Below are positions 49,906 through 64,000 of a stretch of 64,000 nucleotides of DNA, one piece after another. The notes below the pieces were generated by a model. That model searched no databases, was not told the origin of the DNA, and worked only from the letters and a program-made list of their open reading frames with translations. Within the stretch, counting starts at the first letter, position 1. The number at the start of each line of letters is the position of its first letter. Source of the stretch: Microbacterium esteraromaticum (GTDB lineage Bacteria; Actinomycetota; Actinomycetes; Actinomycetales; Microbacteriaceae); NCBI RefSeq assembly GCF_016907315.1, contig NZ_JAFBBS010000001.1, forward strand, positions 2,976,001-3,040,000, written 5' to 3'. Position numbers and translations under genes: made by a program.

Positions 49906-50901
49906 TCAGATGCCCGAGCCGGGGCGGATCATCCCGACCGGCTGGCCGCCGCCGAGCACCTCCAGAGGCAGGGCGCTCGCCAGGGTCGCGACATCCGACT
50001 CGCTGAGGGCACCGGCGCGCGCGAGCAGGGTCGCGGCGACGATCGCCGAAGCGCGGCTGCTGCCGTCGAGCATCTTGCTGGCGACGGTCGTGCCGTCAGG
50101 GGCGACCATGACCATCACGCCCTCCGCGCCGTGCTTGGCGAACACGCCGAGGGTCTCGATGGCGATGGTGTCGGGCTCGCCCGGTCCGGCAATGGTCCAC
50201 GGGTTCTCGCGCACAGCGCGGACGAGCGCGCCGGCGACACGATGCAGAGCGAACGGCGAGCGCTCGGATGCCGAGCCGATCCGGTGGATCGCGCGCGCGA
50301 GGCCGAGCAGCGTGATCGCGTGGACTGGCGCTCCGCAGCCGTCGATGGAGGTGTGCGCGATCTTCTCGCCGGCAAGGCGCTCGACGACGTCGCGGATGTG
50401 CACCTGCAGCGGGTGGGCGGGGTCGAGGTAGCCCTCGGTGGGCCAGTCGGTCGCGACGCACGCGCGCAGCATCAGAGCGTGCTTGCCCGAGCAGTTCATC
50501 CGCACGCGCGCCTTGTCGGCGTGGTCGCGGATCATGTCACGACGAGCCGTCGCATCGGAAGGCCATGCGGTCGGGCAGCCGAGGTCGTCCTCGTTCAGAC
50601 CGCCGGCGGCGAGCATCTCACGTACCACCTCGACATGGCGGTCGGTGCCGCTGTGGCTGGCGGTGCCGAGCGCGAGCTGCTCGCTATCGAGGGCGGCGCC
50701 GGCTGTCACGCTGGCGATCGCCTGCAGCGGCTTGAGGCTCGAGCGCGGCAGGATGAGCGCCTCGGCATTGCCGTGCTGCGCGACGACCTCTCCTTCGGGG
50801 GAGAGCACGACCGCAGCACCCGCATGGCGGGACTCCACGAAGCCGTTGCGCTCCACGATCGCGAGTTCGACAGCGTCAGCGATGGTGAGAGTCTCGAGCA
50901 C
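49906..50901 (-). CDS. Asparaginase (thermolabile/R. etli type II family, PF06089)
   Basis: A 331-aa protein of the rhizobial-type L-asparaginase family, unrelated to the E. coli type. The conserved blocks are ALILPRSSLKPLQAIA (Ser-x-x-Lys pair), ASHSGTDRHVEVV, RMNCSGKHALMLRACV and SIDGCGAPVHAITL. No signal peptide, so cytoplasmic. Starts with GTG; a TAGGCT box ends 6 bases upstream, so it is probably leaderless. It converges with the FtsK-like gene, with about 10 bases between the stops. Confidence 0.9.
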   Translation of the reverse strand: MLETLTIADAVELAIVERNGFVESRHAGAAVVLSPEGEVVAQHGNAEALILPRSSLKPLQAIASVTAGAALDSEQLALGTASHSGTDRHVEVVREMLAAGGLNEDDLGCPTAWPSDATARRDMIRDHADKARVRMNCSGKHALMLRACVATDWPTEGYLDPAHPLQVHIRDVVERLAGEKIAHTSIDGCGAPVHAITLLGLARAIHRIGSASERSPFALHRVAGALVRAVRENPWTIAGPGEPDTIAIETLGVFAKHGAEGVMVMVAPDGTTVASKMLDGSSRASAIVAATLLARAGALSESDVATLASALPLEVLGGGQPVGMIRPGSGI

Positions 50902-50907
50902 CAGACA

Positions 50908-50913
50908 AGCCTA
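50908..50913 (-). promoter_or_regulatory. Predicted -10 element (leaderless) for asparaginase
   Basis: TAGGCT on the minus strand ends exactly 6 bases before the GTG at 50901. A variant CAGACT ends 6 bases before the divergent OsmC start. Confidence 0.5.
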
Positions 50914-50941
50914 ATGCGCCGCGCAGTGGCAGACTGGCGCA

Positions 50942-51433
50942 ATGGCCCCGCTCGGCGAACACCACTACGCGCTCACCACCACCTGGACGGGAAATCGCGG
51001 CTCCGGCACGAGCGGATACCGGGATTACACCAGAGACGTGACGATCAGCATCCAGGGCAAGACCGAGCTGCTGGCATCGTCCGACAAGCCTTTCCGCGGC
51101 GACCCGGCACGCTGGAATCCAGAGGATCTTCTCCTCGCCGCTCTGTCGGAGTGTCACCTGCTCTCGTACCTTCACGCATGCGTCACCGCGGGCGTCGTCG
51201 TGATCGACTACTACGACGACGCTCAGGGCGTGATGCGGGAGGATGGCCGCGGTGGCGGCGCATTCGCCGAGGTCACTCTGCGGCCGCAGGTGACCGTCGC
51301 AGACGAGTCGATGCTCGAGGCTGCCCGCGATGCCCACCGCACGGCGAACGAGTGGTGCTTCATCGCGAACTCGGTGAACTTCCCCGTGCGCCACGAGGCC
51401 ACGATCGTCGTCGCGTCGGCGCCTCGTGACTGA
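50942..51433 (+). CDS. OsmC/Ohr-family protein
   Basis: A 163-aa peroxiredoxin-like protein of the OsmC superfamily, which reduces organic hydroperoxides with two cysteines. The first catalytic Cys is in NPEDLLLAALSECHLLSYL and the second in RTANEWCFIANSVNFPV. The block YTRDVTISIQGK and the C-terminal VRHEATI fit the OsmC rather than the Ohr subgroup. It is divergent from the asparaginase gene and convergent with plsC. Confidence 0.9.
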   Translation: MAPLGEHHYALTTTWTGNRGSGTSGYRDYTRDVTISIQGKTELLASSDKPFRGDPARWNPEDLLLAALSECHLLSYLHACVTAGVVVIDYYDDAQGVMREDGRGGGAFAEVTLRPQVTVADESMLEAARDAHRTANEWCFIANSVNFPVRHEATIVVASAPRD

Positions 51434-51445
51434 GATCGCCGAGGC

Positions 51446-52234
51446 TCAGCGGCGCTCGTGCGGGAACGCCTGCTTGATCTTCTCGATCGGCGTCTGCGCC
51501 GGAGGCTCGTTGTACACGCCGGCGAGCTCCTGACCGCTCAGGGCGTGGATGGCGGCCATGATCTCGTCCGTCGCGAGCCGACGGGCCTTGCCACTGGTCG
51601 CAGGGCCGTGCTTCGAGACGTCGATGGGTGTCCCGAACCTGACTGTCACCCGCTCGCTCGTCGACGGCATCTTCGCGCCGACCGGCATCACCTTGTCGGT
51701 GCCGATCAGACCGACCGGCACGACGGGCGCCCCGGTCTGCAGGGCCAGGAAGGCGACGCCGGTGCGGCCCTTGTACAGGCGGCCGTCGGTCGAACGAGTG
51801 CCCTCGGGATACAGCGCGACCGCGAGGTCCTGCTCGAGCAGCTGTCGCTGCTGGTCGAGCGCGTCGAGAGCGGCCTGGCCTGCGCCGCGGCGCACGGGGA
51901 TGGCGCCGACAGAGGTGAAGAACTGGCGTGAGAGCGCACCCTTGAAACCAGTGCCCTCGAAGTAGCTCGACTTCGCCAGAAAGTGCACAGGCCGGGGAGC
52001 GGCCACCGGGATCGCCATCGAGTCGATGAAAGAGAGGTGATTGCTGGCGAGGATGACGGCGCCGCTGAGGGGCACGTTCTCGCGTCCCTCGATGCGAGGA
52101 CGGTAGACCACCCGAGCGAGGGGAGCGGCGATCATCCGTCCCAGCTTGTACTTGAACCCCGCGCGCTTCGGCGTGGTGTGCTCGGCCTCCCCGGACTCGG
52201 GATCGACGGGGGTGACCGAATGCTCAGAACTCAC
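51446..52234 (-). CDS. 1-acyl-sn-glycerol-3-phosphate acyltransferase (PlsC family)
   Basis: Acylates lysophosphatidic acid in phospholipid synthesis (262 aa). Motif I is ILASNHLSFIDSM (NHxxxxD as NHLSFID), motif III is ALYPEGTRSTDG and motif IV APVVPVGLIG. The hydrophobic N-terminal part is weak, so it is a peripheral membrane protein. Starts with GTG at 52234; TAAGCT ends 6 bases upstream. The C-terminal tail after motif IV extends by about 80 residues. It is not linked to plsB/plsX, so the acceptor may differ. Confidence 0.88.
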   Translation of the reverse strand: MSSEHSVTPVDPESGEAEHTTPKRAGFKYKLGRMIAAPLARVVYRPRIEGRENVPLSGAVILASNHLSFIDSMAIPVAAPRPVHFLAKSSYFEGTGFKGALSRQFFTSVGAIPVRRGAGQAALDALDQQRQLLEQDLAVALYPEGTRSTDGRLYKGRTGVAFLALQTGAPVVPVGLIGTDKVMPVGAKMPSTSERVTVRFGTPIDVSKHGPATSGKARRLATDEIMAAIHALSGQELAGVYNEPPAQTPIEKIKQAFPHERR

Positions 52235-52240
52235 CGGATG

Positions 52241-52246
52241 AGCTTA
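52241..52246 (-). promoter_or_regulatory. Predicted -10 element (leaderless) for plsC-like gene
   Basis: TAAGCT on the minus strand ends exactly 6 bases before the GTG at 52234. Confidence 0.5.
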
Positions 52247-52360
52247 TCTTTCCGTGCATGCCGAGCGTGGAATGGCTGCTGAGCCGGACGGCACTCAGCG
52301 GCAGCAAAGCCAGGTGGTTCACTATGGAAGATCCCTGCCCTGCGAATCCGAGGTCTCATC

Positions 52361-53308
52361 TTGCGCCTGCGCCCCCTCACCTTTGTCTCCACCGTGGCTC
52401 TCGCCGCGCTCGTGCTCACCGGATGCTCCGGTTCGCCGAAGCCCTCGGAGTCGGCCGACCCGACCGGCAGCGCCGATGCGTGCGCACAGGCGGCTGCGCC
52501 CGGATCGTACACCGACGGCGTCAAGGTCGACGGGGAGGTCGGCAAGCCGGCGAAGGTCACCGTCGACAAGAGCAAGAAGGTCGGCGAGGTGCAGCGCACG
52601 GTCGTCAGCGAGGGCGACGGCGAGAAGGTCGCCGAGGGCGACTACATCGCCTACGCGATGAGCGCGTTCGACTCGAAGACCGGAGACCACCTCGGCGACC
52701 TGGGGTACAAGGAGGGCGAGCTCCTGCCACAGAACGCGCTCGCGAACCAGGCGCTCGCCGAGGCGATCGGCTGCGCCACCATCGGAACCCGCGTCGCGTT
52801 CGCCTTGCCTGCGGCGGAGGGTGCGGAATCGCAGCTGTACATCATCGACGTGCTCGACAAGGTCCCCACCGCCGCGTGGGGAGAGAAGCAGAAGCCGGTC
52901 GACGGCATGCCGACGGTGAAGCTCGCGAAGGACGGCGAGCCCGATGTCGACGTTCCCGCCGGCGACGCTCCCAAGGAGCTGAAGATCTCTGTGCTGAAGG
53001 AGGGCGACGGTCCTGAGGTCGCCGACGGCGACACCACGCTGCTGCAGTACTACGGCGTCGACTGGAAGGACGGCAAGAGCTTCGACTCGTCGTGGTCGAA
53101 GGGCGCACCGTACGCAGCCCCCGGCAACACCTACGTACCGGGATTCGTGCAGGCGCTCGCGGGCCAGAAGGTCGGCTCGCAGGTGCTTGTCGTCATCCCG
53201 CCGGCGCTCGCCTACGGCGAGGACCCCGAGGCTCATGAGCTCGGAGGTCAGACGCTGGTGTTCGTCATCGACATCCTCGCGACGCAGCACGCGCCCGCCG
53301 GGCAGTGA
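52361..53308 (+). CDS. FKBP-type peptidyl-prolyl isomerase lipoprotein
   Basis: An extracytoplasmic lipoprotein (315 aa) with lipobox LTGC, lipidated Cys22, followed by a Ser/Pro/Thr linker. The C-terminal half is an FKBP domain: LLQYYGVDWKDGKSFDSSW, then YVPGFVQALAGQKVGSQVLVVIP and ALAYGE, with the hydrophobic active-site residues kept. The N-terminal half (about 50-180) looks like a second, divergent FKBP-like unit (VSEGDGEKVAEGDYIAYAMS). The start TTG at 52361 directly precedes the signal sequence; GAGG lies about 7 bases upstream. It probably helps fold secreted proteins. Confidence 0.88.
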   Translation: MRLRPLTFVSTVALAALVLTGCSGSPKPSESADPTGSADACAQAAAPGSYTDGVKVDGEVGKPAKVTVDKSKKVGEVQRTVVSEGDGEKVAEGDYIAYAMSAFDSKTGDHLGDLGYKEGELLPQNALANQALAEAIGCATIGTRVAFALPAAEGAESQLYIIDVLDKVPTAAWGEKQKPVDGMPTVKLAKDGEPDVDVPAGDAPKELKISVLKEGDGPEVADGDTTLLQYYGVDWKDGKSFDSSWSKGAPYAAPGNTYVPGFVQALAGQKVGSQVLVVIPPALAYGEDPEAHELGGQTLVFVIDILATQHAPAGQ

Positions 53309-53317
53309 CCGACTGAC

Positions 53318-53353
53318 GAGAGGGCGGCGATCCGGCAGGGTCGCCGCCCTCTC
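53318..53353 (+). terminator. Terminator hairpin of the FKBP gene
   Basis: Perfect 13-bp stem GAGAGGGCGGCGA / TCGCCGCCCTCTC with a 10-base loop, 9 bases after the stop and immediately before the dxr promoter. Confidence 0.8.
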
Positions 53354-53356
53354 GCA

Positions 53357-53362
53357 TAGGCT
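53357..53362 (+). promoter_or_regulatory. Predicted -10 element (leaderless) for dxr
   Basis: TAGGCT ends exactly 6 bases before the ATG at 53369. Confidence 0.5.
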
Positions 53363-53368
53363 GGCGGC

Positions 53369-54451
53369 ATGCGTCGCGTCATCGTCCTCGGCTCCACCGG
53401 CTCCATCGGCACACAGGCGCTGGACGTGATCCGCGGCAATCCGCGCCGCTTCGAACTCGTCGGCATCGCCGCAGGCAGCAACGCGGAGATGCTCGCAGAG
53501 CAGGCTGCCCAGTTCCAGCTCGAGCACACCGCACTCGGCGCCGCAGAGGCGGAGCAGATGGTGCGGGACGTCGAGGCTGATGTGGTGCTCAATGCGATCA
53601 CCGGCTCCATCGGGCTCGGATCGACCCTCGCGGCGCTGAAGGCGGGGCGCACGCTCGCCCTCGCCAACAAGGAGTCCCTCATCGTGGGCGGCGAGCTGGT
53701 GCGTGCGGGCGCCGCCCCCGATCAGATCGTGCCGGTCGACTCAGAGCACTCCGCCCTCGCACAGGCGCTGCGCGCCGGAACCCGCGCCGAGGTCGGCAGG
53801 CTCGTGGTCACCGCATCCGGTGGGCCCTTCCGAGGCCGTGCCAGGGCGGAGCTCGCCGACGTCACACCCGCCCAGGCTCTCGCCCATCCCACCTGGGACA
53901 TGGGGCGCATGGTCACCACGAACTCGGCGACGCTGGTGAACAAGGGCCTCGAGGTCATCGAGGCGCATCTACTGTTCGACGTGCCGTACGACGACATCGA
54001 GGTGGTCGTGCACCCGCAGTCGATCGTGCACTCCATGGTCGAGTTCGTCGACGGCTCGACCATCGCGCAGGCGTCGCCGCCCGACATGCGCCTGCCGATC
54101 TCGCTGGGTCTGGACTGGCCTCACCGTGTCGGCGGCGTCGGACGCCCGCTCGACTGGCGCACTGCGACCAGCTGGACCTTCGAGCCGCTCGACGACGAGG
54201 CCTTCCCCGCGGTCGCGCTGGCCAAGGCCGTCGGCCGCGCCGGCAGCACGTTCCCCGCGGTCTACAACGCCGCGAACGAGCAGGCCGTGCACGCCTTCCA
54301 CGACGGCCGGCTCACGTTCCTCGGCATCGTCGACACGATCCAGCGGGTCATCGATGCTCATGACGCTCCCGACGAGCTCACGATCGAGGCACTGGCCGAC
54401 GCCGAGGCCTGGGCGCGGGCGAAGGCGGATGCCCTGATCGCGGCATCCTGA
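53369..54451 (+). CDS. dxr: 1-deoxy-D-xylulose 5-phosphate reductoisomerase
   Basis: Second enzyme of the MEP isoprenoid pathway (360 aa, normal is about 380-400). The NADPH loop is [31 protein letters not shown], the metal-binding block [15 protein letters not shown] and the TASGGPFRG loop are intact, with CTD-linker [14 protein letters not shown]. Its pathway partner ispG is at 60.3 kb, with rseP between, an order often contiguous in other bacteria but here split by minus-strand genes. A weak bidirectional hairpin follows. Confidence 0.96.
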
Positions 54452-54459
54452 CCATCGAA

Positions 54460-54492
54460 AGAGCCGACCCCCCGGAATGGGCAGCCGGCTCT
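54460..54492. terminator. Weak bidirectional hairpin between dxr and murE-like gene
   Basis: AGAGCCG / CGGCTCT pair as a 7-bp stem with a 19-base loop in the 58-base gap between two convergent stops. No U-tract on either side. Confidence 0.4.
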
Positions 54493-54509
54493 CGTCGCCG
54501 AAGCCGGCG

Positions 54510-56120
54510 TCAGTCGGTGTACGGGACGGGCCAGTGGGATTCGGGGGCCTGCCATCCCGCGGCGATGAGCGCTCGGCGGGCGAGTTCGCGCGCGGAGTAC
54601 GGGGTGCGCACGCCGCGGATGTCGCGGTAGTCCTGGTGCCCCGGTCCCGCCCAGAGAATGGCGTCTCCGTCTCCGACCAGGCTCACGGCCGTCACGATCG
54701 CGTCCTCAGGTGGAGAGACCTCGTGGATCTCAGCATCCGGGCGCGCACGGCGCGCGCCCTCGACGAGGGTGGCGCGTATCGACGCGGGGTCCTCGAATCG
54801 GGGGTGGTGGTCGGTCACCACGAGGATGTCGCTGCCCTCGACAGCCGTGCGGGCCATGTCGAAGCGCTTGGTCGCGTCGCGGTCACCGTCGGCGCCGAAC
54901 AGCATGAGCACCTTGCCCGGGGTCACGCGGCGCACGGCTGCGAGGGTCTTCTCGAAGGCATCCGGAGAATGGCCGAAGTCGACGTACACGGCAGGTCCGC
55001 TCTCGCCCGAGATGAACTGGGTGCGGCCGGGCAGATGCGCGACGATGTGGCCGTCGCGCCCAAGGGCGTCGGTGATGCGCTCCCACGTGTAGCCGCCCTC
55101 GAGCAGCATGACGATCGCCAGCCCCGCGTTGGCCGCCATGTGCGGACCGATCACTGGCACGACCGTCGACAGGGTGCGTCCTCCGGGGCCGGTCAGAGTG
55201 AATGCGGTGCCGCTGGGGCGCTCGTCGTCGATCGTGACGACCCAGTCGGCTGACGCGGCGGTTTCGGGGTCTGCCGCGATCGCCGGCGTGCCGACGGTCA
55301 CGACAGGAACAGTGGCACGATCGACGACGACTGCTCCTGAGGGTGAGTCGACGCTCACCACGGCACGGCGCGAGCGCACCGGCGTGAACAGGGGCAGCTT
55401 CGCCTCGAAGTACTCCTCCATGTCGGCGTAGTCGTCGAGGTGGTCGTGCGAGAGATTGGTGAACCCGGCGACGTCGAACATGATGCCGTCGACGCGGTGC
55501 CGCGAGAGCGCCTGAGCGCTGACCTCGACCGCGACGGCCTCGACCTGCCGCTCGCGCATGAGGGCGAGCAGGGCGTGCATCTCGGACGCTTCGGGGGTTG
55601 TCAGCCGCGAGACGATGACCTCGCCGGCGATGTGCCGCTCGGCCGTCGACGACAGGCCAGACACGACTCCGATCTGGTCGAGCAGTCCCTGCAGCAGGTG
55701 CGACACGCTCGTCTTGCCGTTGGTGCCCGTCGTACCGAAGAGCAGCGGAAGAGGATCGCCTGCACCCGTGCCGTATACCCAGGCGCTGAGCGCGCCGAGC
55801 ACTGCACGGGGGTCGTCGACGACGACGACCGGCAGTCCGGACGAGGCGGCGATCTCGGCGCCCGCTTCATCGGTGATGACCGCGACGGCGCCCTGATCGG
55901 CGGCGGTCTGCGCGAACTCGGCGCCGTGCTTGTTCACGCCCTGGATCGCGACGAATGCCTCGCCGGCGCGGAGGTCGGCGGTGGCGAGGGTGATGCCGCT
56001 CAGCTCGACGTCGGCGATGTCTCCGCGGACGTCTCGGGCGAAGCGGTCGGCCAGCTCGGCCAGAGCACGACGGGGTGGGTCGGCCGGACGGAGCACTGGG
56101 GGCAGTGATGTCGTGGTCAT
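54510..56120 (-). CDS. murE: Mur ligase, MurE-like (UDP-MurNAc-tripeptide synthetase family)
   Basis: ATP-dependent ligase (536 aa) that adds residue 3 to the UDP-MurNAc dipeptide, or a paralogue. The ATP loop is LFGTTGTNGKTSVSHLLQGL; VSAQALSRHRVDG and the FTNLSHDHLDDYADMEEYF block carrying the carbamylated-Lys segment are typical. The amino-acid-selecting motif, DNPR in DAP-adding MurE, reads TDHHPRFED here, and VDYAHTPD reads VDFGHSPD. It is isolated from any dcw genes, 536 aa is longer than usual, and it lies between dxr and rseP. Native MurE with a Lys/Orn/other specificity or a second MurE are both possible. Confidence 0.85.
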   Translation of the reverse strand: MTTTSLPPVLRPADPPRRALAELADRFARDVRGDIADVELSGITLATADLRAGEAFVAIQGVNKHGAEFAQTAADQGAVAVITDEAGAEIAASSGLPVVVVDDPRAVLGALSAWVYGTGAGDPLPLLFGTTGTNGKTSVSHLLQGLLDQIGVVSGLSSTAERHIAGEVIVSRLTTPEASEMHALLALMRERQVEAVAVEVSAQALSRHRVDGIMFDVAGFTNLSHDHLDDYADMEEYFEAKLPLFTPVRSRRAVVSVDSPSGAVVVDRATVPVVTVGTPAIAADPETAASADWVVTIDDERPSGTAFTLTGPGGRTLSTVVPVIGPHMAANAGLAIVMLLEGGYTWERITDALGRDGHIVAHLPGRTQFISGESGPAVYVDFGHSPDAFEKTLAAVRRVTPGKVLMLFGADGDRDATKRFDMARTAVEGSDILVVTDHHPRFEDPASIRATLVEGARRARPDAEIHEVSPPEDAIVTAVSLVGDGDAILWAGPGHQDYRDIRGVRTPYSARELARRALIAAGWQAPESHWPVPYTD

Positions 56121-56194
56121 ATCCCGTCCATGATCTCACGCGACCCGCTCGCACCGCTCTGGCGCGGATCCAGGCGATTCCTCAGCGCTGCCGT

Positions 56195-56200
56195 TAGCGT
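56195..56200 (+). promoter_or_regulatory. Predicted -10 element (leaderless) for rseP
   Basis: TAGCGT ends exactly 6 bases before the GTG at 56207. Confidence 0.5.
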
Positions 56201-56206
56201 GGTCGG

Positions 56207-57520
56207 GTGGAGATCCTGCTGTACCTGGGCGGCGTCGTGTTCATGCTGATCGGCCTCGGCCTCTCGATCGGGCTGCACGAGGTCGGTCACCTGCTGCCCG
56301 CGAAGCTCTTCGGCGTTCGCGTGGGGCAGTACATGATCGGATTCGGACCACGTCTGTGGTCGAGGCGGATCGGAGAGACCGAATACGGTTTCAAGGCCCT
56401 CCCGCTCGGCGGCTTCATCTCGATGTCGGGCATGTACCCGCCGTCGGCCAGGAGTTCGCCGGCCCGCGGGGTCTTCGCTTCGCTGGTGCAGGATGCCCGC
56501 ACCGCCAACGACGAGACGATCGCCGACGGCGAGGAGCATCGGGTCTTCTACCGCCTGCCGGTGTGGAAGCGCGTGATCGTCATGCTCGGCGGGCCGGCGA
56601 TGAACTTCCTGCTCGCGATCGCGATCTTCACGGTCATGGCATCCGGAATCGGAATCCAGCAGGCGAGCACGACCGTCAGCGCCGTCACGGAGTGCGTGCT
56701 GCCCGCAGGCAGCACGCAGCAGGCCTGCGCGGCCGACGACCCTGTGGCGCCCGCCGCCGAGGCGGGCGTCGAGGCGGGAGACGTGCTCGTCAGCGTCGGA
56801 GGCCAGCAGGTGCAGACATTCGCCGACGCATCCCAGATCATCCAGCGCTCGCCGGGCGAGCCGCTCGACATCGTCGTCGACCGCGACGGCGAGAACGTCG
56901 ATCTGACCCTCACCCCCGTTGCAGCCGAACGGGCAGAAGTGGATGCCGAGGGCCGTCCTGTGGTCGACGCGAACGGCGACCCCGTCACGCGCACGGTCGG
57001 CTACGCGGGCATCTTCGCGCAGCAGGAGTACGTGCCGCAGCCGCTCGGCACCGGCACGGAACTCGCTGTGCAGCAGACCGGCGCCGTCGCATCGCTGGTC
57101 GTGAATCTTCCGGTGAAGCTGTGGAATGTGGGAGTCTCGCTCGTCACAGGGGCCGAGCGCGACCCTAATGGTCCGCTCAGCGTGGTCGGCGTCGGTCGAC
57201 TCGCGGGAGAGGTGGCGGCGACGGATGCTCCGGTGCTCAACCGCCTGGTCGTTCTGATGAACCTGCTCGCAGCGCTGAACATCGCCCTGTTCGTGTTCAA
57301 CCTCATCCCGCTTCTGCCGCTCGACGGCGGACACGTCATCGTCGCGCTCTGGGAGGGCGTGAAGCGGGCGTGGGCGAAGCTCACCGGACGTGCTGAGCCC
57401 AAGCCCGTCGATGCAACAAGGCTGGTGCCCGTCACCGTCGTCGTTGCGGTGCTCCTGATCGGTATGGGCGCTCTGCTCATCATCGCCGACCTCGTGAAGC
57501 CGATGAACCTGCTGGGCTGA
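56207..57520 (+). CDS. rseP: Site-2 membrane metalloprotease RseP (M50 family)
   Basis: Intramembrane zinc protease (437 aa) that cleaves anti-sigma factors after site-1 cleavage. The zinc motif HEVGH is at 24-28 in the first membrane helix, followed by KALPLGGFISMSGM. A PDZ domain lies at about 165-240 (AAEAGVEAGDVLVSVGGQQV), preceded by an insert with two Cys (CVLPAGSTQQAC). The second metal motif reads NLIPLLPLDGGHVI in helix 3. Starts with GTG and has a leaderless-type promoter. Confidence 0.94.
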   Translation: MEILLYLGGVVFMLIGLGLSIGLHEVGHLLPAKLFGVRVGQYMIGFGPRLWSRRIGETEYGFKALPLGGFISMSGMYPPSARSSPARGVFASLVQDARTANDETIADGEEHRVFYRLPVWKRVIVMLGGPAMNFLLAIAIFTVMASGIGIQQASTTVSAVTECVLPAGSTQQACAADDPVAPAAEAGVEAGDVLVSVGGQQVQTFADASQIIQRSPGEPLDIVVDRDGENVDLTLTPVAAERAEVDAEGRPVVDANGDPVTRTVGYAGIFAQQEYVPQPLGTGTELAVQQTGAVASLVVNLPVKLWNVGVSLVTGAERDPNGPLSVVGVGRLAGEVAATDAPVLNRLVVLMNLLAALNIALFVFNLIPLLPLDGGHVIVALWEGVKRAWAKLTGRAEPKPVDATRLVPVTVVVAVLLIGMGALLIIADLVKPMNLLG

Positions 57521-57539
57521 CGCCCTCCGCCGCCCGGGA

Positions 57540-59420
57540 TCAGACGAGGGCGTGCGCCGTGAGGCGCTCGAGGGTCTCGAGCCCGTCGCGCGACAGGATC
57601 GACTCCAGATGGCCCTGCACCGAGGCGAAGCGCTCGCCGCGAAGCGCGTAGACGTCGCCGCTGTCCGCATCCGCGGACACCTCGGCATCCCGCACCCGGG
57701 TCGTCCCGGGGGCGACGCGAGCGGTGAACGTGTTGTAGAACCCGACCGACGCGTCCTTGCCGAACACCGGCACCGTCTTCTGCACGCCCTGGTGCGGGAC
57801 GTCGAGCGGAACGAGGGAGATGCCGAGGCGATCCGCGAGGATCTGGTGACTGAGGCACACGGCCAGCAGCGGGGCACCGGCGTCGCATCGCCGCGCGACC
57901 ACATGCTGCATCCGCGCGATGCGCTCAGAGGCGGCGTCACGGGGATCGCCGGGACCTGGGCCTGCGACGACCAGGTCCGCAGCATCGATCGCGGCGTCGG
58001 TCACGGCATCCCAGGTCGCGATCTCGACGTCCAGCCCGAGGTGACGCAGCTGATGGGCGAGCATCGTCGTGAAGCGGTCTTCGGCATCTACGACCAGTGC
58101 GTTCCGACCCGAGAACCGACCCCCGGGATGGGCGTCCTGCGGCTGCACCCAGAAGTCGGCGAGTCGGGTGTTGCGGGATGCCAGCAGCGCGGCGATCTCG
58201 GGATCGTCGGCCAGGCTCGCGTCTGCCGGGGCGTCGTCGTCGCGCGCCTCCGCGGAGCGGTCGCGCTCGATGGCGCCGATCGCCCCCAGGACGCCCGCGG
58301 CCTTCCCGTGGGTCTCGTTCACCTCGCCCTGCGGATCGGAGTGGCGCACCAGCGTGGCGCCGACCGGCACCCGCAGACGGCCGCCGTCGAGGTACACGGT
58401 GCGGATCAGGATGGGGGCGTCGAGATCGTGCCCGCCCTCCGCATTCGGAGTGAACAGCGCGGCGACGCCGGAGTAGTAGCCGCGAGGCGACTGCTCGTGC
58501 CGGCGGATCACTGCGCATGCGTTCTGCATGGGAGAGCCCGTGACGGTGGGGGCGAACATCGTCTCGCGCAGGATGTCGCGCGGGTCGAGGCGGCTGCGCC
58601 CCCGCAGCATGTACTCGGTGTGAGTCAGCCGCGACATCTCCTTCAGATGCGGGCCGGTGATGCGGCCGCCGTCTGAGCAGACCTGGCTCATCATTTTGAG
58701 TTCTTCATCGACGACCATGAACAGCTCCTCTGTCTCCTTCGTCGACGAGAGGAATTCGGTCAGCGACTCGCGTGTCGACCCGCCTGCGGGGTGACGGAAG
58801 GTCCCGGAGATGGGATTCATGGTGACGACGCCGTCGCGCGCGACGACGTGTGCCTCGGGGCTCGCCCCGACGGCGATCTGTCCGGGGGTGATGACGGCGA
58901 AGGTCCAGTACGCGCCGCGCTCGTGCTCGAGCAGGGCGCGGAACCAGGTGAGCGCGGCGGTGCGGTCGTCGGCGTCGAACGCGGCGCGGTAGTCGCGGCG
59001 GATGACGAAGTTCGCGCCCTCGCCGTGGCCGATCTCGTCGGCGATGACCCGTCGGACGATCTCGGCGTAGTCGGCATCGGAGATGTCGAACCCGCCGTCG
59101 GCCAGCGTGATCTGCGCATCCGGGAGCGCCGCGATCAGGTCGGCGCGGTTCAGCTGCTCGTGCTCGGAGACCACGATGCATCGCAGCGGGGTGCCGTCGT
59201 CGTCGGCGTCGAATCCGCGCTCGCGAACCTGGCGATAGGGCACCATCGCGAAGACTTCGCGTGCCTCCACCCCGTCGCTCAGCGGGATGTCGGCGAGACT
59301 GTCGACGTCTAGGACATCGCCGGTGAGCAGATCGACGCTCCCGTCGCGCGCGATGAGCACGAAGGATGCCTCGTGGTCTGCGGCGAGCTCTGCCAGACGG
59401 GCGAGCGGAAGTGCGGTCAT
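57540..59420 (-). CDS. Fused anthranilate synthase (TrpE-TrpG; PhzE-type)
   Basis: One 626-aa chain joins a chorismate-binding domain (about 1-420: IGHGEGANFVIRR, MNPISGTFRHPAGG, FMVVDEELKMMSQVC, and the Mg2+/substrate block HTEYMLRGRSRLDPRDIL) to a class I glutamine amidotransferase (about 440-620: AGPGPGDPRD, nucleophile Cys in LLAVCLSHQILADRLG, and the C-terminal VQGHLES). The product is anthranilate, or 2-amino-2-deoxyisochorismate if it is a true PhzE; GVQKTVPVFG and SVGFYNTF look PhzE-like. No other phz genes are here, and the Trp attenuator in front argues for tryptophan synthesis. The start ATG 59420 has GAGGAGA 6-12 bases upstream. Confidence 0.88.
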   Translation of the reverse strand: MTALPLARLAELAADHEASFVLIARDGSVDLLTGDVLDVDSLADIPLSDGVEAREVFAMVPYRQVRERGFDADDDGTPLRCIVVSEHEQLNRADLIAALPDAQITLADGGFDISDADYAEIVRRVIADEIGHGEGANFVIRRDYRAAFDADDRTAALTWFRALLEHERGAYWTFAVITPGQIAVGASPEAHVVARDGVVTMNPISGTFRHPAGGSTRESLTEFLSSTKETEELFMVVDEELKMMSQVCSDGGRITGPHLKEMSRLTHTEYMLRGRSRLDPRDILRETMFAPTVTGSPMQNACAVIRRHEQSPRGYYSGVAALFTPNAEGGHDLDAPILIRTVYLDGGRLRVPVGATLVRHSDPQGEVNETHGKAAGVLGAIGAIERDRSAEARDDDAPADASLADDPEIAALLASRNTRLADFWVQPQDAHPGGRFSGRNALVVDAEDRFTTMLAHQLRHLGLDVEIATWDAVTDAAIDAADLVVAGPGPGDPRDAASERIARMQHVVARRCDAGAPLLAVCLSHQILADRLGISLVPLDVPHQGVQKTVPVFGKDASVGFYNTFTARVAPGTTRVRDAEVSADADSGDVYALRGERFASVQGHLESILSRDGLETLERLTAHALV

Positions 59421-59453
59421 CGGTGTCTCCTCGGTCGGGGATCCGGTGCGGAC

Positions 59454-59481
59454 AAAAAAAGACCGCCCCGGGAGGCGGTCT
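59454..59481 (-). terminator. Rho-independent terminator of the Trp attenuator
   Basis: On the minus strand AGACCGCC-tcccgg-GGCGGTCT forms an 8-bp stem directly followed by seven Ts. It lies between the leader peptide and the anthranilate synthase start, so it can stop transcription before the structural gene. Confidence 0.85.
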
Positions 59482-59503
59482 GATCTCGTGGGTACGCGAA
59501 TCA

Positions 59504-59518
59504 CCGCCTAGAAGGCGG
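59504..59518 (-). promoter_or_regulatory. Attenuator hairpin 1 / antiterminator arm
   Basis: CCGCC-ttcta-GGCGG is a 5-bp hairpin right after the tandem Trp codons, with the leader's TAG stop at its loop. Its right arm GGCGGT (59503-59508) is also complementary to ACCGCC (59474-59479), the left arm of the terminator. This gives the mutually exclusive fold expected of attenuation. Confidence 0.75.
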
Positions 59519-59543
59519 GCCACCAGGAACGGGTCGCGGACAT
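59508..59543 (-). CDS. trpL: Trp leader peptide MSATRSWWPAF
   Basis: An 11-codon ORF (ATG to TAG) upstream of the fused anthranilate synthase. Codons 7 and 8 are tandem TGG (59520-59525). When charged tRNA-Trp is scarce, a ribosome stalled there would cover the left arm of hairpin 1 and free the antiterminator arm; otherwise it runs to the TAG and lets the terminator form. The ORF lacks a ribosome site, but a TACTTT -10 box ends 7 bases upstream, so it may be the first codon of a leaderless mRNA. Confidence 0.85.
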   Translation of the reverse strand: MSATRSWWPAF

Positions 59544-59550
59544 ACCGTGA

Positions 59551-59556
59551 AAAGTA
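59551..59556 (-). promoter_or_regulatory. Predicted -10 element of the trpL-anthranilate synthase transcript
   Basis: TACTTT on the minus strand, 7 bases before the leader-peptide ATG. No -35 match was found at 16-18 bases. Confidence 0.5.
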
Positions 59557-59608
59557 GCACATCGTGCTTCGCCGGCCGGTGCGTGTGACGCAGGGGAGCG
59601 ACGCTCCG

Positions 59609-60235
59609 TCACCAGACGGCACCGCCTGGCACGGGGCGCTCGGGCTCGAAGACCAGGTCTACGCAGCGCCGCACAGCGCGCGCGATCACGTCGTCGGGCA
59701 GACTCGGTGCACCAGCCGGTGCCGTCGACGTCGACCAGGGCAGGTGCACGAATCCGGTCGGCACCGTCGCCGGCACCGCCCCCAGGGCCGTGTAGAGCAC
59801 GTGATTGCACACATATGCTCCGGCAGACAGAGAGGCACGGGCAGGTATCCCCTCCTCTTCGAGCGACGCGACCACATGCTTGACGGGCGCCGTCGCGAAA
59901 CGCGCCGCCGGTCCGTCGGGTTCGCAGGGCTGGTCGATCGGCCTCGCCCCATCGTTGTCGGCGATCCTGGCATCCATCAGATTGATACCCACCCGCTCGA
60001 CGGCGACCCGGTCGCTGCCGCCGGCGAGACCTGTCGCGATCACCGCGTCGGGGTCGTGGTCGGCGATCAGCGAGCGCAGCCGCAGTGCCGAGCCCTCGTA
60101 CGACACCGGCAGAGTCGCGGTGATCAGCCGGTCGGGGCCGTCGTACGACGCGGCGACCGCCGCGACCGCATCGGCCGACGGGTTCCGGCTGTCGCCGCCG
60201 AAGGCTTCGAACCCCGTGAGCAGGATGGTGCGCAT
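59609..60235 (-). CDS. pcp: Pyroglutamyl-peptidase I
   Basis: Cysteine peptidase of family C15 (208 aa) that removes N-terminal pyroglutamate. Blocks in order: MRTILLTGFEAFGGDSRNPS, DAVIATGLAGGSDRVAVERVGINLMDARI, the catalytic Cys in SAGAYVCNHVLYTAL, and the His in TGFVHLPW. The Glu of the catalytic triad is in the ERVGIN block. ATG 60235 is preferred because the family starts there; the frame is open upstream into the ispG promoter. A TAGGCT -10 box lies 8 bases upstream. Confidence 0.92.
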   Translation of the reverse strand: MRTILLTGFEAFGGDSRNPSADAVAAVAASYDGPDRLITATLPVSYEGSALRLRSLIADHDPDAVIATGLAGGSDRVAVERVGINLMDARIADNDGARPIDQPCEPDGPAARFATAPVKHVVASLEEEGIPARASLSAGAYVCNHVLYTALGAVPATVPTGFVHLPWSTSTAPAGAPSLPDDVIARAVRRCVDLVFEPERPVPGGAVW

Positions 60236-60243
60236 GGAACACG

Positions 60244-60249
60244 AGCCTA
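60244..60249 (-). promoter_or_regulatory. Predicted -10 element for pcp
   Basis: TAGGCT on the minus strand ends 8 bases before the ATG at 60235. Confidence 0.45.
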
Positions 60250-60281
60250 CGGACATCCAGCCGACCCCGATCCGGCGACGG

Positions 60282-60287
60282 TAGCCT
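60282..60287 (+). promoter_or_regulatory. Predicted -10 element (leaderless) for ispG
   Basis: TAGCCT ends exactly 6 bases before the GTG at 60294. Confidence 0.5.
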
Positions 60288-60293
60288 GGAGTC

Positions 60294-61445
60294 GTGCCTG
60301 CAGTGAATCTTGGGATGCCGCGCGTCCCCGAAGTCCTCGCCCCGCGTCGCAAGTCCCGTCAGATCCGGGTCGGCAAGGTGCTCGTCGGTGGCGACGCTCC
60401 TGTCAGCGTGCAGTCGATGACCACCACGAAGACCACCGACATCAACGGCACGCTGCAGCAGATCGCCGAGCTGACGGCCTCCGGATGCGAGATCGTGCGC
60501 GTCGCCGTTCCATCTCAGGACGACGCGGATGTGCTGCACATCATCGCGAAGAAGAGTCAGATCCCCGTGATCGCCGACATCCACTTCCAGCCGAAGTACG
60601 TCTTCCAGGCCATCGACGCGGGTTGCGCGGCCGTGCGCGTCAACCCGGGCAACATCCGCAAGTTCGACGACCAGGTGGGTGCGATCGCGCAGGCTGCGAA
60701 GGCCGCCGGAGTCTCGCTGCGCATCGGCGTGAACGCCGGCTCGCTGGATCGTCGCCTGCTCGAGAAGTACGGCAAGGCCACGCCCGAGGCGCTCGTCGAG
60801 AGCGCGGTCTGGGAGGCGTCGCTGTTCGAGGAGCACGACTTCCACGACTTCAAGATCTCGGTCAAGCACAACGATCCCGTCGTGATGGTGAAGGCGTACC
60901 GCCAGCTCGCCGAGCGCGGCGACTGGCCCCTGCACCTCGGCGTGACCGAGGCCGGCCCCGCATTCCAGGGCACCATCAAGAGCGCCACCGCCTTCGGCAT
61001 CCTGCTCGGCGAGGGCATCGGCGACACGATCCGCGTATCGCTGTCGGCTCCGCCCGCCGAAGAGGTGAAGGTCGGCCACCAGATCCTGCAGTCGCTCAAC
61101 CTCCGTGAGCGCAAGCTCGAGATCGTCTCGTGCCCGTCGTGCGGTCGCGCTCAGGTCGATGTGTACACGCTCGCCGAAGATGTCACCGAGGGCCTGAAGG
61201 ACATGACTGTCCCGCTGCGCGTCGCCGTGATGGGCTGCGTCGTGAACGGCCCGGGCGAGGCCCGCGAGGCCGACCTCGGCGTCGCGTCGGGCAACGGCAA
61301 GGGCCAGATCTTCGTGAAGGGCGAGGTCATCAAGACCGTGCCCGAGGCGGACATCGTCGCCACCCTCATCGAAGAGGCCAATCGCATCGCGGCCGAGATG
61401 GGCGCCGACGCCCCGCTCGGCACCGCACAGGTCGTCACCGGCTGA
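60294..61445 (+). CDS. ispG: 4-hydroxy-3-methylbut-2-en-1-yl diphosphate synthase (GcpE)
   Basis: Penultimate MEP-pathway enzyme (383 aa), a [4Fe-4S] protein that reduces MEcPP to HMBPP. The TIM-barrel N-terminus has [19 protein letters not shown], and the cluster ligands lie in [16 protein letters not shown] and [17 protein letters not shown]. The length is the short bacterial type without the plant insertion. GTG start; promoter is leaderless. It completes the dxr-rseP-ispG set. Confidence 0.97.
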
Positions 61446-61465
61446 CGCCCCGACAGGAAGAACAC

Positions 61466-62320
61466 ATGCAGTCGACGCTCGTCTCCTTTCCTGATGGCGC
61501 TCTCACCGGCGAGGGCGAGGTGCTGCTCGTAGATCAGGCCGCGTCCGTCGTGATCGTCGACGCGACGCCGTTCCACCCCGTCGATCACACCTGGCCCGAC
61601 CAGCCTGGCGACGCCGGCGTGATCACAGCCGGCGACGTGCAGGTGCGCGTGACCGAAGCGGTGATGGCGGCGATCAGCGACGAGGGTGCGCTCGCCGTCG
61701 GATCCGATATCCCGGTCAAGCGCGGCGGCGAAGGCTGGACCTGGATGGTCGGCCATCGGACCGACGGCGCCATCCCCGCCGCTGTCGCGGTCGGGGCGCG
61801 GGTCGCGCTGGAGGTGGATGCCGATCGCCGGGCGTCGCTGAGCCGCGGGCACACCGCGTGCCACCTGGCATCCCTCGCGCTCGACACCGCGCTGGCCGAC
61901 CTCTGGCGCAAGGAGATCGGCGCAGACCCGCTGGGCAATCCGGACTTCGAGGGCAAGGCGAACCAGTCGAGCCGCATCCACGCGGACGGCAGCGTCGACG
62001 AGTACCGGCTCGGCAAGAGCCTGCGCAAGGCCGGCTTCGACTCCGAGGGCTTCGCGTCTTCGCTCGCCGAGCGCGAGCAGCGGATCAACGAGCTGCTCGC
62101 GGGCTGGGTCGCATCGGGCGGGCAGAGCCGCATCGACGTCGACGGGCCGAGCATCATCGACCGCCGCACGTGGCGCTGCGCTCTGCCCGAGGGGGAGGTC
62201 GGCTTCCTCTGCGGCGGCACTCACGTGCGCTCGCTCGCGGAGTTCGAGTCGATCACCGTGTCACTCGATCTCGGCGACCCGCAGCTGCTCGTCATGACGA
62301 CCACCGCTGTCGCGGCCTGA
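61466..62320 (+). CDS. AlaX-like tRNA editing / tRNA_SAD-domain protein
   Basis: A 284-aa protein related to the editing domain of alanyl- and threonyl-tRNA synthetases. The metal-binding motif HxxxH appears as SRGHTACHLASLAL, and the second half motif Cys-x-x-x-His as FLCGGTHVRSLAEF. The N-terminal part (1-110) is a beta-barrel-like domain as in AlaX-M. It probably hydrolyses mischarged Ser- or Gly-tRNA-Ala in trans. ATG 61466 has AGGAAG upstream, 20 bases after ispG, so they can be co-transcribed. Confidence 0.85.
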   Translation: MQSTLVSFPDGALTGEGEVLLVDQAASVVIVDATPFHPVDHTWPDQPGDAGVITAGDVQVRVTEAVMAAISDEGALAVGSDIPVKRGGEGWTWMVGHRTDGAIPAAVAVGARVALEVDADRRASLSRGHTACHLASLALDTALADLWRKEIGADPLGNPDFEGKANQSSRIHADGSVDEYRLGKSLRKAGFDSEGFASSLAEREQRINELLAGWVASGGQSRIDVDGPSIIDRRTWRCALPEGEVGFLCGGTHVRSLAEFESITVSLDLGDPQLLVMTTTAVAA

Positions 62321-62330
62321 TCGCCGCTGA

Positions 62331-62489
62331 TCACCACATGGCGCGGACGATGCGCACCGCATCCTCTGTGGTGAGCCCCTCACGGCGAGCTGCCGATGTG
62401 AGCGCCCGAGCGGCGCGCGCCACCTCCTGCGAGACGGGGGCGGCGGATCTGCTCACTCGGGTGCCCGCTCCCTCGGGCACCGCTTCCAT
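62331..62489 (-). CDS. Small 52-residue ORF coupled to the RNB ribonuclease
   Basis: The ATG overlaps the RNB stop by one base (TGATG), which suggests translational coupling. The product MEAVPEGAGTRVSRSAAP... is 52 aa, helical, with the C-terminal half EVARAARALTSAARREGLTTEDAVRIVRAMW mixed basic and acidic. I recognise no family. It converges with the AlaX-like gene, 10 bases apart. It may be a genuine small gene or merely the read-through region after the RNB gene. Confidence 0.45.
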   Translation of the reverse strand: MEAVPEGAGTRVSRSAAPVSQEVARAARALTSAARREGLTTEDAVRIVRAMW

Positions 62490-63910
62490 CACACGACGAA
62501 TTCGACGGTGCCCTCGGAGACGTCGACCGCGGCGACCCGCAGCTTCACGGTCGCGCCAGGCTGGATGCCGACGGTGACGGGCGCCGTCGCCGTCACCGCG
62601 GGTTCGGCGATCTGCACCGAGGCACGGTCCTCGCCGCGCAGCTCGATGACGGTGGCATCGATGGTCCGGCCCACCAGCGGCTGCAGCAGAGCCGCCTCGA
62701 CGCGGTTGATCGTCTCGGCGTCCAGTCGCGATGCCCGCTGCGCGGAGTCCTGCATCAGGCCGGGCAGCAGGGGCAGCGACTCCCGAGCCCACGCGGGCGC
62801 TGCCTCACCGCGAGACACGGCGAGGCAGATGGCCAGCGACCAGCGGTCGACCAGGCGACGCAGGGGAGCGGTCGTGTGGGCGTAAGGGGCCCCGATCGCG
62901 GCCTGCGTGAGGTCGCCTTCGGGGAGCTGCCCGTCGAAGGTGATGTAGCCCGCACCGCGGAACAGGGCTGCAGCCGCTTCGAGCACCGGCAGCGCCACAG
63001 GGTCGGCGGTGTCGAGTGCACGCAGATAGTCGCCATACCGACCCGCGGTCCATGGGCGGCCGAGAGCCTCGGTCTGCCGTCGGAATCTGTCGAAGGCGCG
63101 CTCGTCCGGCTGCGGCATGGTGCGCAGCACGCCGACCTTCGCGTCGATCATCAGCTCGGCGGCAGCCATGCCTGTCATCAGCGACAGCTGCGCGTTCCAG
63201 TCCTCGATCGGCAGGGGGCGGCGGCGCTCTATGTCGTAGCGCCCGTCCTCACGCACCACGACCTCCTCATCAGGGAGGTTGAGACTCGCGCCCCCTCGCT
63301 GGGCCTCCTGTACTCGTCGCAGCTCGCCGATCTCCCGCAGCAGCGAGAGGTGGTCGTCGTCGCCGCGGTCGATGGCTGCCTGTGCTGAGGCGTAGTCGAG
63401 CTGATCGCGCGAGCGGATGAGCGCGCGCTCCAGCCGGAACCCGGTCTTCGCCCCCTCAGCGTCGAGCGCGAAGGTCCAGACGAGTGCGGGGCGCTCGACA
63501 CCCGCCAACAGCGACGCGCGATCCTCTGACAGCACCCGCGGATGCAGCGGGATGTTCCCGTCGGCCAGATACAGGGTCTGACCGCGCAGACGAGCCTGCG
63601 CATCGAGCGCACCTCCCGGCTCGACGTAGCCCGGCACATCGGCGATCGCATATCGCACCTGATATCCCGAACCCGCGCGCTCCAGCTGGAATGCCTGATC
63701 GAGGTCTTTCGAGCCCAGCGGATCGAGCGTCACGAAGGGCACGTCTCGCAGGTCGAGGTCGGGCGTGGGGGCGCTCGCCGCCTCGGCTTCGGCGATCGCC
63801 TCGGGCGGGAACTCGACCGGCGCCTCGATGCCGGCCCGAAGCGCTGCGAGCGCTTCGGCGAGCTCGCTCTGCTCGGCGGAAGAGGAGACATGTGATCGAC
63901 GCTGAGGCAT
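62489..63910 (-). CDS. RNB-domain ribonuclease (RNase II/R family)
   Basis: A 473-aa 3'-5' exoribonuclease-like protein with the catalytic RNB domain: FVTLDPLGSKDLDQAFQLER (Asp cluster), YAIADVPGYVEPGGALDAQA, YLADGNIPLHPRVLSEDRASL, and the C-terminal YAHTTAPLRRLVDRW. The N-terminal cold-shock and C-terminal S1 domains of full RNase R (about 800 aa) are missing or reduced to a short beta tail (about 400-473), as in the short actinobacterial RNB proteins. Leaderless-type promoter TAGGGT ends 6 bases before the ATG. Confidence 0.9.
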   Translation of the reverse strand: MPQRRSHVSSSAEQSELAEALAALRAGIEAPVEFPPEAIAEAEAASAPTPDLDLRDVPFVTLDPLGSKDLDQAFQLERAGSGYQVRYAIADVPGYVEPGGALDAQARLRGQTLYLADGNIPLHPRVLSEDRASLLAGVERPALVWTFALDAEGAKTGFRLERALIRSRDQLDYASAQAAIDRGDDDHLSLLREIGELRRVQEAQRGGASLNLPDEEVVVREDGRYDIERRRPLPIEDWNAQLSLMTGMAAAELMIDAKVGVLRTMPQPDERAFDRFRRQTEALGRPWTAGRYGDYLRALDTADPVALPVLEAAAALFRGAGYITFDGQLPEGDLTQAAIGAPYAHTTAPLRRLVDRWSLAICLAVSRGEAAPAWARESLPLLPGLMQDSAQRASRLDAETINRVEAALLQPLVGRTIDATVIELRGEDRASVQIAEPAVTATAPVTVGIQPGATVKLRVAAVDVSEGTVEFVV

Positions 63911-63916
63911 GCACCC

Positions 63917-63922
63917 ACCCTA
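63917..63922 (-). promoter_or_regulatory. Predicted -10 element (leaderless) for the RNB gene
   Basis: TAGGGT on the minus strand ends exactly 6 bases before the ATG at 63910. Confidence 0.5.
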
Positions 63923-63976
63923 CGCACGGCCCCCGCAACCTCGGGTAACAGCGGCCCTCCGCTCGCCCACGCCCAG

Positions 63977-63982
63977 TAGCGT
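63977..63982 (+). promoter_or_regulatory. Predicted -10 element (leaderless) for the gene at the right edge
   Basis: TAGCGT ends exactly 6 bases before the ATG at 63989. Confidence 0.45.
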
Positions 63983-63988
63983 GAAGAC

Positions 63989-64000
63989 ATGACGAACGCT
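63989..64000 (+). CDS. First codons of an unidentified gene (partial)
   Basis: Only ATG ACG AAC GCT (MTNA) is inside the window. It is called because a TAGCGT hexamer lies 6 bases upstream, the same arrangement as for ten other genes here, and the strand is opposite to the RNB gene. The product cannot be told. Confidence 0.4.

Follow-up and report, generated by a model that had tools for sequence, protein, structure and literature searches.

The window, a 64,000-nucleotide stretch of the Microbacterium esteraromaticum genome (a single contig of 3.24 Mb), carries the trpEG gene on its minus strand (57540–59420). The gene encodes a protein of 626 aa in which Pfam identifies fused chorismate-binding and glutamine amidotransferase domains, and a likely Shine-Dalgarno site, GAGGAG (59427–59432, minus strand, assigned by eye), lies 6 nt 5' of its ATG. 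The upstream neighbour in the ORF list is a pyroglutamyl-peptidase-like gene on the same strand (ORF 59609–60352), whose stop (59609) is located 65 nt upstream of the ATG of a short leader ORF. This neighbour scores under every NCBIfam cut-off among the matches listed, the best being 185.1 against 199 bits.

The minus strand between the two genes reads TGcTACTTT, 7 nt, and the codons ATG TCC GCG ACC CGT TCC TGG TGG CCC GCC TTC TAG, followed by a stretch with TCGCGTAC and then by AGACCGCC-TCCCGG-GGCGGTCT and a T run. The TG-extended −10 box (59551–59559; TACTTT 59556–59551, TG 59559–59558) was assigned from the sequence and the relatives. The leader ORF, also found in the relatives, spans 59508–59543 (ATG 59543–59541, TAG 59510–59508), has 11 codons for MSATRSWWPAF before the stop, and its translation probably begins at the 5' end of the mRNA. 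In it, codons 7 and 8 are the tandem Trp codons TGGTGG (59520–59525). Just behind them, the sequence and the alignment define arm 1, CCGCC (59518–59514), which is separated by the loop TTCTA from GGCGG (59508–59504) and forms an inner hairpin with it. The latter belongs to arm 2, GGCGGT (59508–59503), for which the sequence and the folding energies indicate two partners, arm 1 in the hairpin or ACCGCC (59479–59474) within arm 3 in an antiterminator. Arm 3, AGACCGCC (59474–59481; sequence, terminator scan and alignment), is at once the 3' side of the antiterminator and the 5' side of a terminator. The terminator is completed at 59454–59467 by arm 4, GGCGGTCT (59467–59460; sequence and terminator scan), and a T run (59460–59454) whose first T belongs to the stem. 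The alternative pairings 1:2, 2:3 and 3:4 and the terminator are thus all present as sequence. An earlier note on this DNA had listed the leader ORF, the tandem TGG codons, the hairpin, the GGCGGT arm, the 8-bp terminator with its T run and the −10 box, and each of these parts was found in its place.

A terminator scan of 59300–59800 returned one site, whereas shuffled sequences averaged 0.1, and no promoter-like site with a −35 element was found in the same interval. The 92-nt leader folds at −38 kcal/mol, compared with −30.34 (sd 3.13) for its shuffles (z −2.45). The terminator has an energy of −14.8 kcal/mol and the inner hairpin −8.7 kcal/mol. The antiterminator reaches −9.7 kcal/mol as a bare 6-bp stem and −14.1 kcal/mol when nt 34–70 fold alone, with arm 2 on arm 3. 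When nt 34–90 are folded together, the terminator beats the antiterminator, indicating that switching must rest on timing. An Rfam search of 50000–64000 with E up to 5 gave six matches with no Trp leader among them; the trp leader family of Rfam is RF00513 (PMC4046766).

The locus was compared with 80 TrpEG loci in named records, the best 80 of 577, and a leader was scored where an in-frame start codon, TGGTGG and stop codon were found ahead of the trpEG relative. The closest TrpEG relative among the matches listed is that of Microbacterium commune (88% identity). A TGGTGG leader is present upstream in 77/80 relatives, which gives 78 leaders with the window and argues that the attenuator is not a chance arrangement. 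Of the three rows with no leader, two are truncated at contig ends (L034 and L039, the latter unscored), and in the third, L082 (Streptomyces sp. I6), the gene overlaps the upstream ORF by eye, suggesting a cluster copy. Across the 58 Microbacterium-type rows, the GCGG of arm 2 is invariant. RNAalifold predicted 14 pairs for these rows, none with a change on both sides, because arms 2, 3 and 4 hardly vary within Microbacterium. An outer helix, described below, was not predicted from these 58 rows, in which its columns look out of register. In the f32/g37 group the inner hairpin is CCTCC/GGAGG (L152 and L169, by eye) versus CCGCC/GGCGG elsewhere, so that both sides have changed and the pairing is kept. 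The earlier note had looked to related genomes for retained Trp codons and co-varying stems. The Trp codons are indeed kept; the near-invariant arms make co-variation uninformative within Microbacterium, and a change on both sides appears in the f32/g37 inner hairpin.

A survey of 246 genomes of the class identified 85 with a trpEG-type match at E 1e-60 or better. The upstream stretches of 92 of the 94 matches outside the host genome were analysed, two pieces of genome G144 at contig ends being omitted. A TGGTGG leader is present in 62/92 regions and absent from 30/92. One of the 62, in L170, lies 418 nt away from the gene with no promoter match and is probably due to chance. By group, leaders were found in 6/6 regions of f1/g1, 2/2 of f1/g2, 17/18 of f25, 9/11 of f23, 21/29 of f24/g29, 2/2 of f40, 4/4 of f32/g37 and 1/1 of f32/g100 (L170), and in 0/5 of f22, 0/13 of f32/g49 and 0/1 of f4. 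The f32/g49 regions (L145, L149, L153, L160, L162–L168, L171 and L182) have a trpEG-type gene with no TGGTGG leader in the ~700 bases upstream. In seven f24/g29 genomes with two or three trpEG-type matches, exactly one copy each has the leader. Several f24/g29 leaders read MFAHSTQNWWWTAHPAAH, one residue off the S. lividans TrpL1 peptide MFAHSTRNWWWTAHPAAH, and from this likeness the group g29 is taken to be Streptomyces. The tandem Trp codons in a short ORF ahead of trpEG very probably mark a ribosome-mediated Trp transcription attenuator of this gene, read from a leaderless leader mRNA. Attenuation by Trp, as claimed in the earlier note, is supported by the recurrence of tandem-TGG leaders before trpEG relatives, and trpEG would be expected to respond to Trp.

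The start codons of the 78 leaders were picked blindly as the nearest ATG, or else GTG. TANNNT ends 6 nt before the start in 39/78 leaders and 7 nt before it in 32/78 (71/78 together), at 8 nt in 1/78, and at no other spacing in more than three. The −10 box is TG-extended at the 6 or 7 nt spacing in 60/78, and SD-like 4-mers in the −18 to −4 interval occur in 0/78. The class survey showed TANNNT 5–8 nt before a start in 61/62 leaders when promoter-bearing starts were preferred, and at 6–7 nt in 48/62 under the promoter-blind start rule; an SD-like 4-mer was found in 0/62. With a TANNNT box 6–7 nt from the start, a Shine-Dalgarno site would not fit in between, and a leaderless transcript requires just this arrangement. 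At the sequence level, the window leader has the same features, a −10 box within 6–8 nt of the start and no Shine-Dalgarno site. The leader mRNA is probably leaderless, beginning at or next to the leader ATG, and the leaderless leader peptide of the earlier note gains support from the spacing in the relatives, which points to that mRNA 5' end. A Trp attenuator mRNA that carries a few untranslated bases at its 5' end, and so is not strictly leaderless, would be compatible with a start point placed from the −10 match in an interval with no promoter-like site with a −35. However, it is quite improbable given that the box spacing in 71/78 leaders leaves no Shine-Dalgarno room, that SD-like motifs occur in 0/78, and that an S. 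lividans relative is reported to be leaderless (PMC8079986). The earlier note took attenuation from a leaderless leader to be an unusual variant; this does not hold, since leaderless trpL1 of S. lividans was reported in 2021 (PMC8079986).

The identity of the fused enzyme bears on what the attenuator controls. TrpEG lies under the curated cut-offs of the NCBIfam TrpE equivalogs, with a best score of 164.5 against 645 bits and a score of 150.2 against a cut-off of 739.15 for TrpE-clade3 (25 of 41 families listed). Among solved structures, 3r74 is the nearest (E 2.1e-162, nearly full length); it was deposited as 'Anthranilate/para-aminobenzoate synthases component I', and we take it to be the phenazine enzyme PhzE. 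Chains named anthranilate synthase match TrpEG with a best E of only 1.1e-17. With both domains in one chain and 3r74 as the nearest structure, TrpEG is of the fused PhzE/TrpEG type. The structural match and the NCBIfam scores far under the cut-offs would suit an enzyme of the PhzE type that makes 2-amino-2-deoxyisochorismate for a secondary product, the attenuator serving that pathway. However, trpB and trpD are present elsewhere in the same genome, with trpC and trpA adjoining trpB (genes named by eye), and of the two further chorismate-binding enzymes in the genome one scores above the PabB cut-off and one above the isochorismate synthase cut-off. By these assignments trpEG is the only anthranilate-synthase candidate of a one-contig genome, which fits Trp control of trpEG. 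As the leader carries Trp codons as well, a PhzE-type role appears very improbable. Through the leader Trp codons, this fused enzyme, whose label is uncertain, would be linked to the Trp supply.

There is next to no likelihood that the hairpin is a plain intrinsic terminator of the pyroglutamyl-peptidase-like gene beside a chance ORF, with no Trp sensing: that gene is on the same strand and stops 65 nt before the leader ATG, but the tandem TGG codons, the arms and the promoter spacing recur over many genera. In the Trp attenuator, a 70S ribosome would bind the 5' AUG of the leader mRNA, which presumably has its 5' end at the leader ATG or immediately beside it. When charged tRNA-Trp is scarce, the ribosome would stall at codons 7–8 and cover arm 1, arm 2 would pair with arm 3, and RNA polymerase would read into trpEG. 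When Trp is plentiful, the ribosome would reach the TAG, arm 2 would be covered or paired with arm 1, and the pairing of arm 3 with arm 4 would stop transcription. We infer the Trp response and the ribosome positions, the latter at codons 7–8 and at the TAG from the usual ribosome footprints. The antiterminator would win by time, as in other attenuators.

When the leaders are read side by side, the first leader codons appear able to pair with the bases immediately following arm 2, with both sides changing together. L036 has UUCACGAA with UUCGUGAA, L028 and L029 have UUCGCGAA on both sides, and L143 has GUACGCAC/GUGCGUAC among relatives with GUUCGCGC/GCGCGUAC. A further pairing variant is AUGUACGC/GCGUACAU in L115, and GUGACA/UGUCAC was read by eye in L161, where the computed best duplex differs. 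In the window, the pairing tests place the two sides of this proposed outer clamp helix at arm 0 (59534–59541, minus strand, leader nt 3–10 from the G of ATG) and arm 2b, TCGCGTAC (59492–59499, minus strand). The helix is weak here, with 2 + 5 pairs and one mismatch.

In an alignment-free test, every leader start was paired with the post-arm-2 segment of its own locus and with those of other loci, and the duplex energies were compared. In the first set (69 distinct pairs) the own energy averaged −12.58 against −10.26 (sd 0.28) for shuffled partners (z −8.3, reached in 0/5000 shuffles), and five control segments gave z −0.4 to 1.1 overall and −1.8 to 1.5 in two subsets. Anchoring on arm 2 and adding the class survey gave −13.11 against −10.56 (sd 0.21; z −12.1, 0/5000) over 119 distinct pairs, with z −4.9 in the Microbacterium genus (52), −9.0 elsewhere (67) and −0.7 to 0.8 for the controls. 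These pairs come from 136 anchored rows, identical pairs being counted once; L170 (no promoter match) and L079, L084 and L157 (no arm 2 anchor) were omitted, and L100/L067 and L105/L071 look like the same genomes. For 92/119 pairs, the start codon contains the first base of the best duplex. The half next to arm 2 gives the stronger signal (own −8.92, shuffled −7.27, sd 0.19) and the far half the weaker one (own −6.01, shuffled −5.44, sd 0.16). However, in 17/119 cases the leader's own segment is no better a partner than the median foreign one. The window is among these (−8.5 with its own, −8.5 with the median foreign 2b), and in three relatives of the window, L005, L006 and L008, the own segment is the poorer partner. 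The window clamp is absent from the 90-nt minimum-energy fold and present in the centroid of the 92-nt leader. Thus, the outer helix is well supported for the family and weakly for the window sequence. An extra antiterminator helix formed by 2b and the following bases was unsupported (own −4.82, shuffled −4.58, sd 0.16, 325/5000; 102 distinct spacers, 12/119 pairs omitted because the arm 3 anchor was missing or the spacer was too short).

The own-partner signal between the leader start and the post-arm-2 segment could also reflect shared ancestry or a DNA operator rather than an RNA helix. Kinship inflates such tests and CGCG-rich arms pair with many partners. Within Microbacterium the half-segment test is weaker (27/5000 shuffles reach it), one control gave z −1.8, and the far half also gave some signal. 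However, the control segments of the same loci are near zero (z −0.4 to 1.1 and −0.7 to 0.8), and the signal persists with one sequence per group (20 groups, three pairs of groups having been merged; 30 draws, z −4.0 to −6.1; control −1.5 to 0.9). Co-changes such as that in L143 also argue for pairing, and an origin other than an RNA helix appears unlikely.

The outer helix between the first leader codons and arm 2b would lengthen the hairpin of arms 1 and 2 and bury the start codon, suggesting a role as a clamp. A leaderless mRNA needs a free 5' AUG for the 70S ribosome, so under such a clamp the ribosome would have to land before 2b is made. A leader that receives no timely ribosome, or that has already been read once, would fold into the hairpin and the terminator, and transcription would end. 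We regard it as an evenly balanced proposition that actinobacterial leaderless trp attenuators share a conserved clamp and are readable only if a 70S ribosome lands before arm 2b is made. In that case the switch would respond to the availability of ribosomes in addition to that of Trp, and the opening residues of the leader peptide would be set by the RNA pairing. If the clamp exists, leaderless attenuators inherently pit the landing of the ribosome against the progress of transcription, and this race would help to account for their function without a Shine-Dalgarno site.

The arm scheme of 1:2, 2:3 and 3:4 alternatives and the two Trp codons are shared with the trp leader of Escherichia coli, whereas the latter begins with an untranslated stretch that contains a Shine-Dalgarno site, and its arms are different. 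In Streptomyces venezuelae, a trp attenuator described by Lin in 1998 is said to precede an anthranilate synthase gene, as in the window. The attenuators of Corynebacterium glutamicum are reportedly leaderless in general, a statement attributed to Neshat in 2014. The closest counterpart is trpL1-trpE of Streptomyces lividans, for which a leaderless leader, two hairpins and a uridine-rich stretch are reported before a monocistronic trpE (PMC8079986). It shares with the window the monocistronic trpE-type gene, the leaderless leader (a probable one in the window), the tandem Trp codons, the hairpins and the uridine-rich stretch. Its leader has 18 aa with WWW, whereas the window leader has 11 aa with WW, and the accessible text of that report describes no clamp (PMC8079986). 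The S. lividans leaders leuL, metL, thrL, ilvL and trpL2 are likewise reported to be leaderless (PMC8079986). Trp attenuators with repeated UGG leader codons and with antiterminators and terminators sharing arms were predicted in Corynebacterium and Streptomyces by Seliverstov in 2005 (PMC1262725); the accessible passages of that paper do not mention Microbacterium, a leaderless start or an outer helix. A leaderless Trp attenuator is thus already known from S. lividans, and trp attenuators have been predicted in Actinobacteria since 2005, as far as these partial sources go (PMC8079986, PMC1262725). The present comparisons extend the switch known from Streptomyces to Microbacterium and other genera, and the open-licence literature searched yielded nothing on Trp attenuation or a leader peptide in Microbacterium. 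The nearest likeness to the clamp is in C. glutamicum ilvBNC, where the transcript is reported to start 1 nt from the leader start and a hairpin H1, called an antiantiterminator, shields the start site (PMC11857589). That leader senses branched-chain amino acids and H1 is proposed for one operon in the accessible text (PMC11857589), whereas the clamp helix proposed here belongs to trp leaders, shows its own-partner signal in many genera and is deduced from sequence comparison. The open-licence literature searched, as far as its accessible text goes, held no description of a clamp in trp leaders, and a start-codon clamp in such leaders is possibly new.

In the host genome, no second Trp leader was seen by eye in the stretches upstream of trpC, trpS and ilvB. 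The absence of a Trp leader before trpC suggests that Trp attenuation may be confined to trpEG. At trpC-trpB-trpA (L085, 3400–4146), a small membrane-type-looking ORF precedes trpC, with no Trp leader by eye. Upstream of leuA (L186, G000:C1:336267–340961, reverse), a leaderless-looking leader, MPLGGLLLLSCRDES, was noticed by eye with TGcTAGCAT 6 nt before its ATG; it resembles the S. lividans LeuL1 peptide MRFGLLLLSCRGEGL as reported in the accessible text (PMC8079986).
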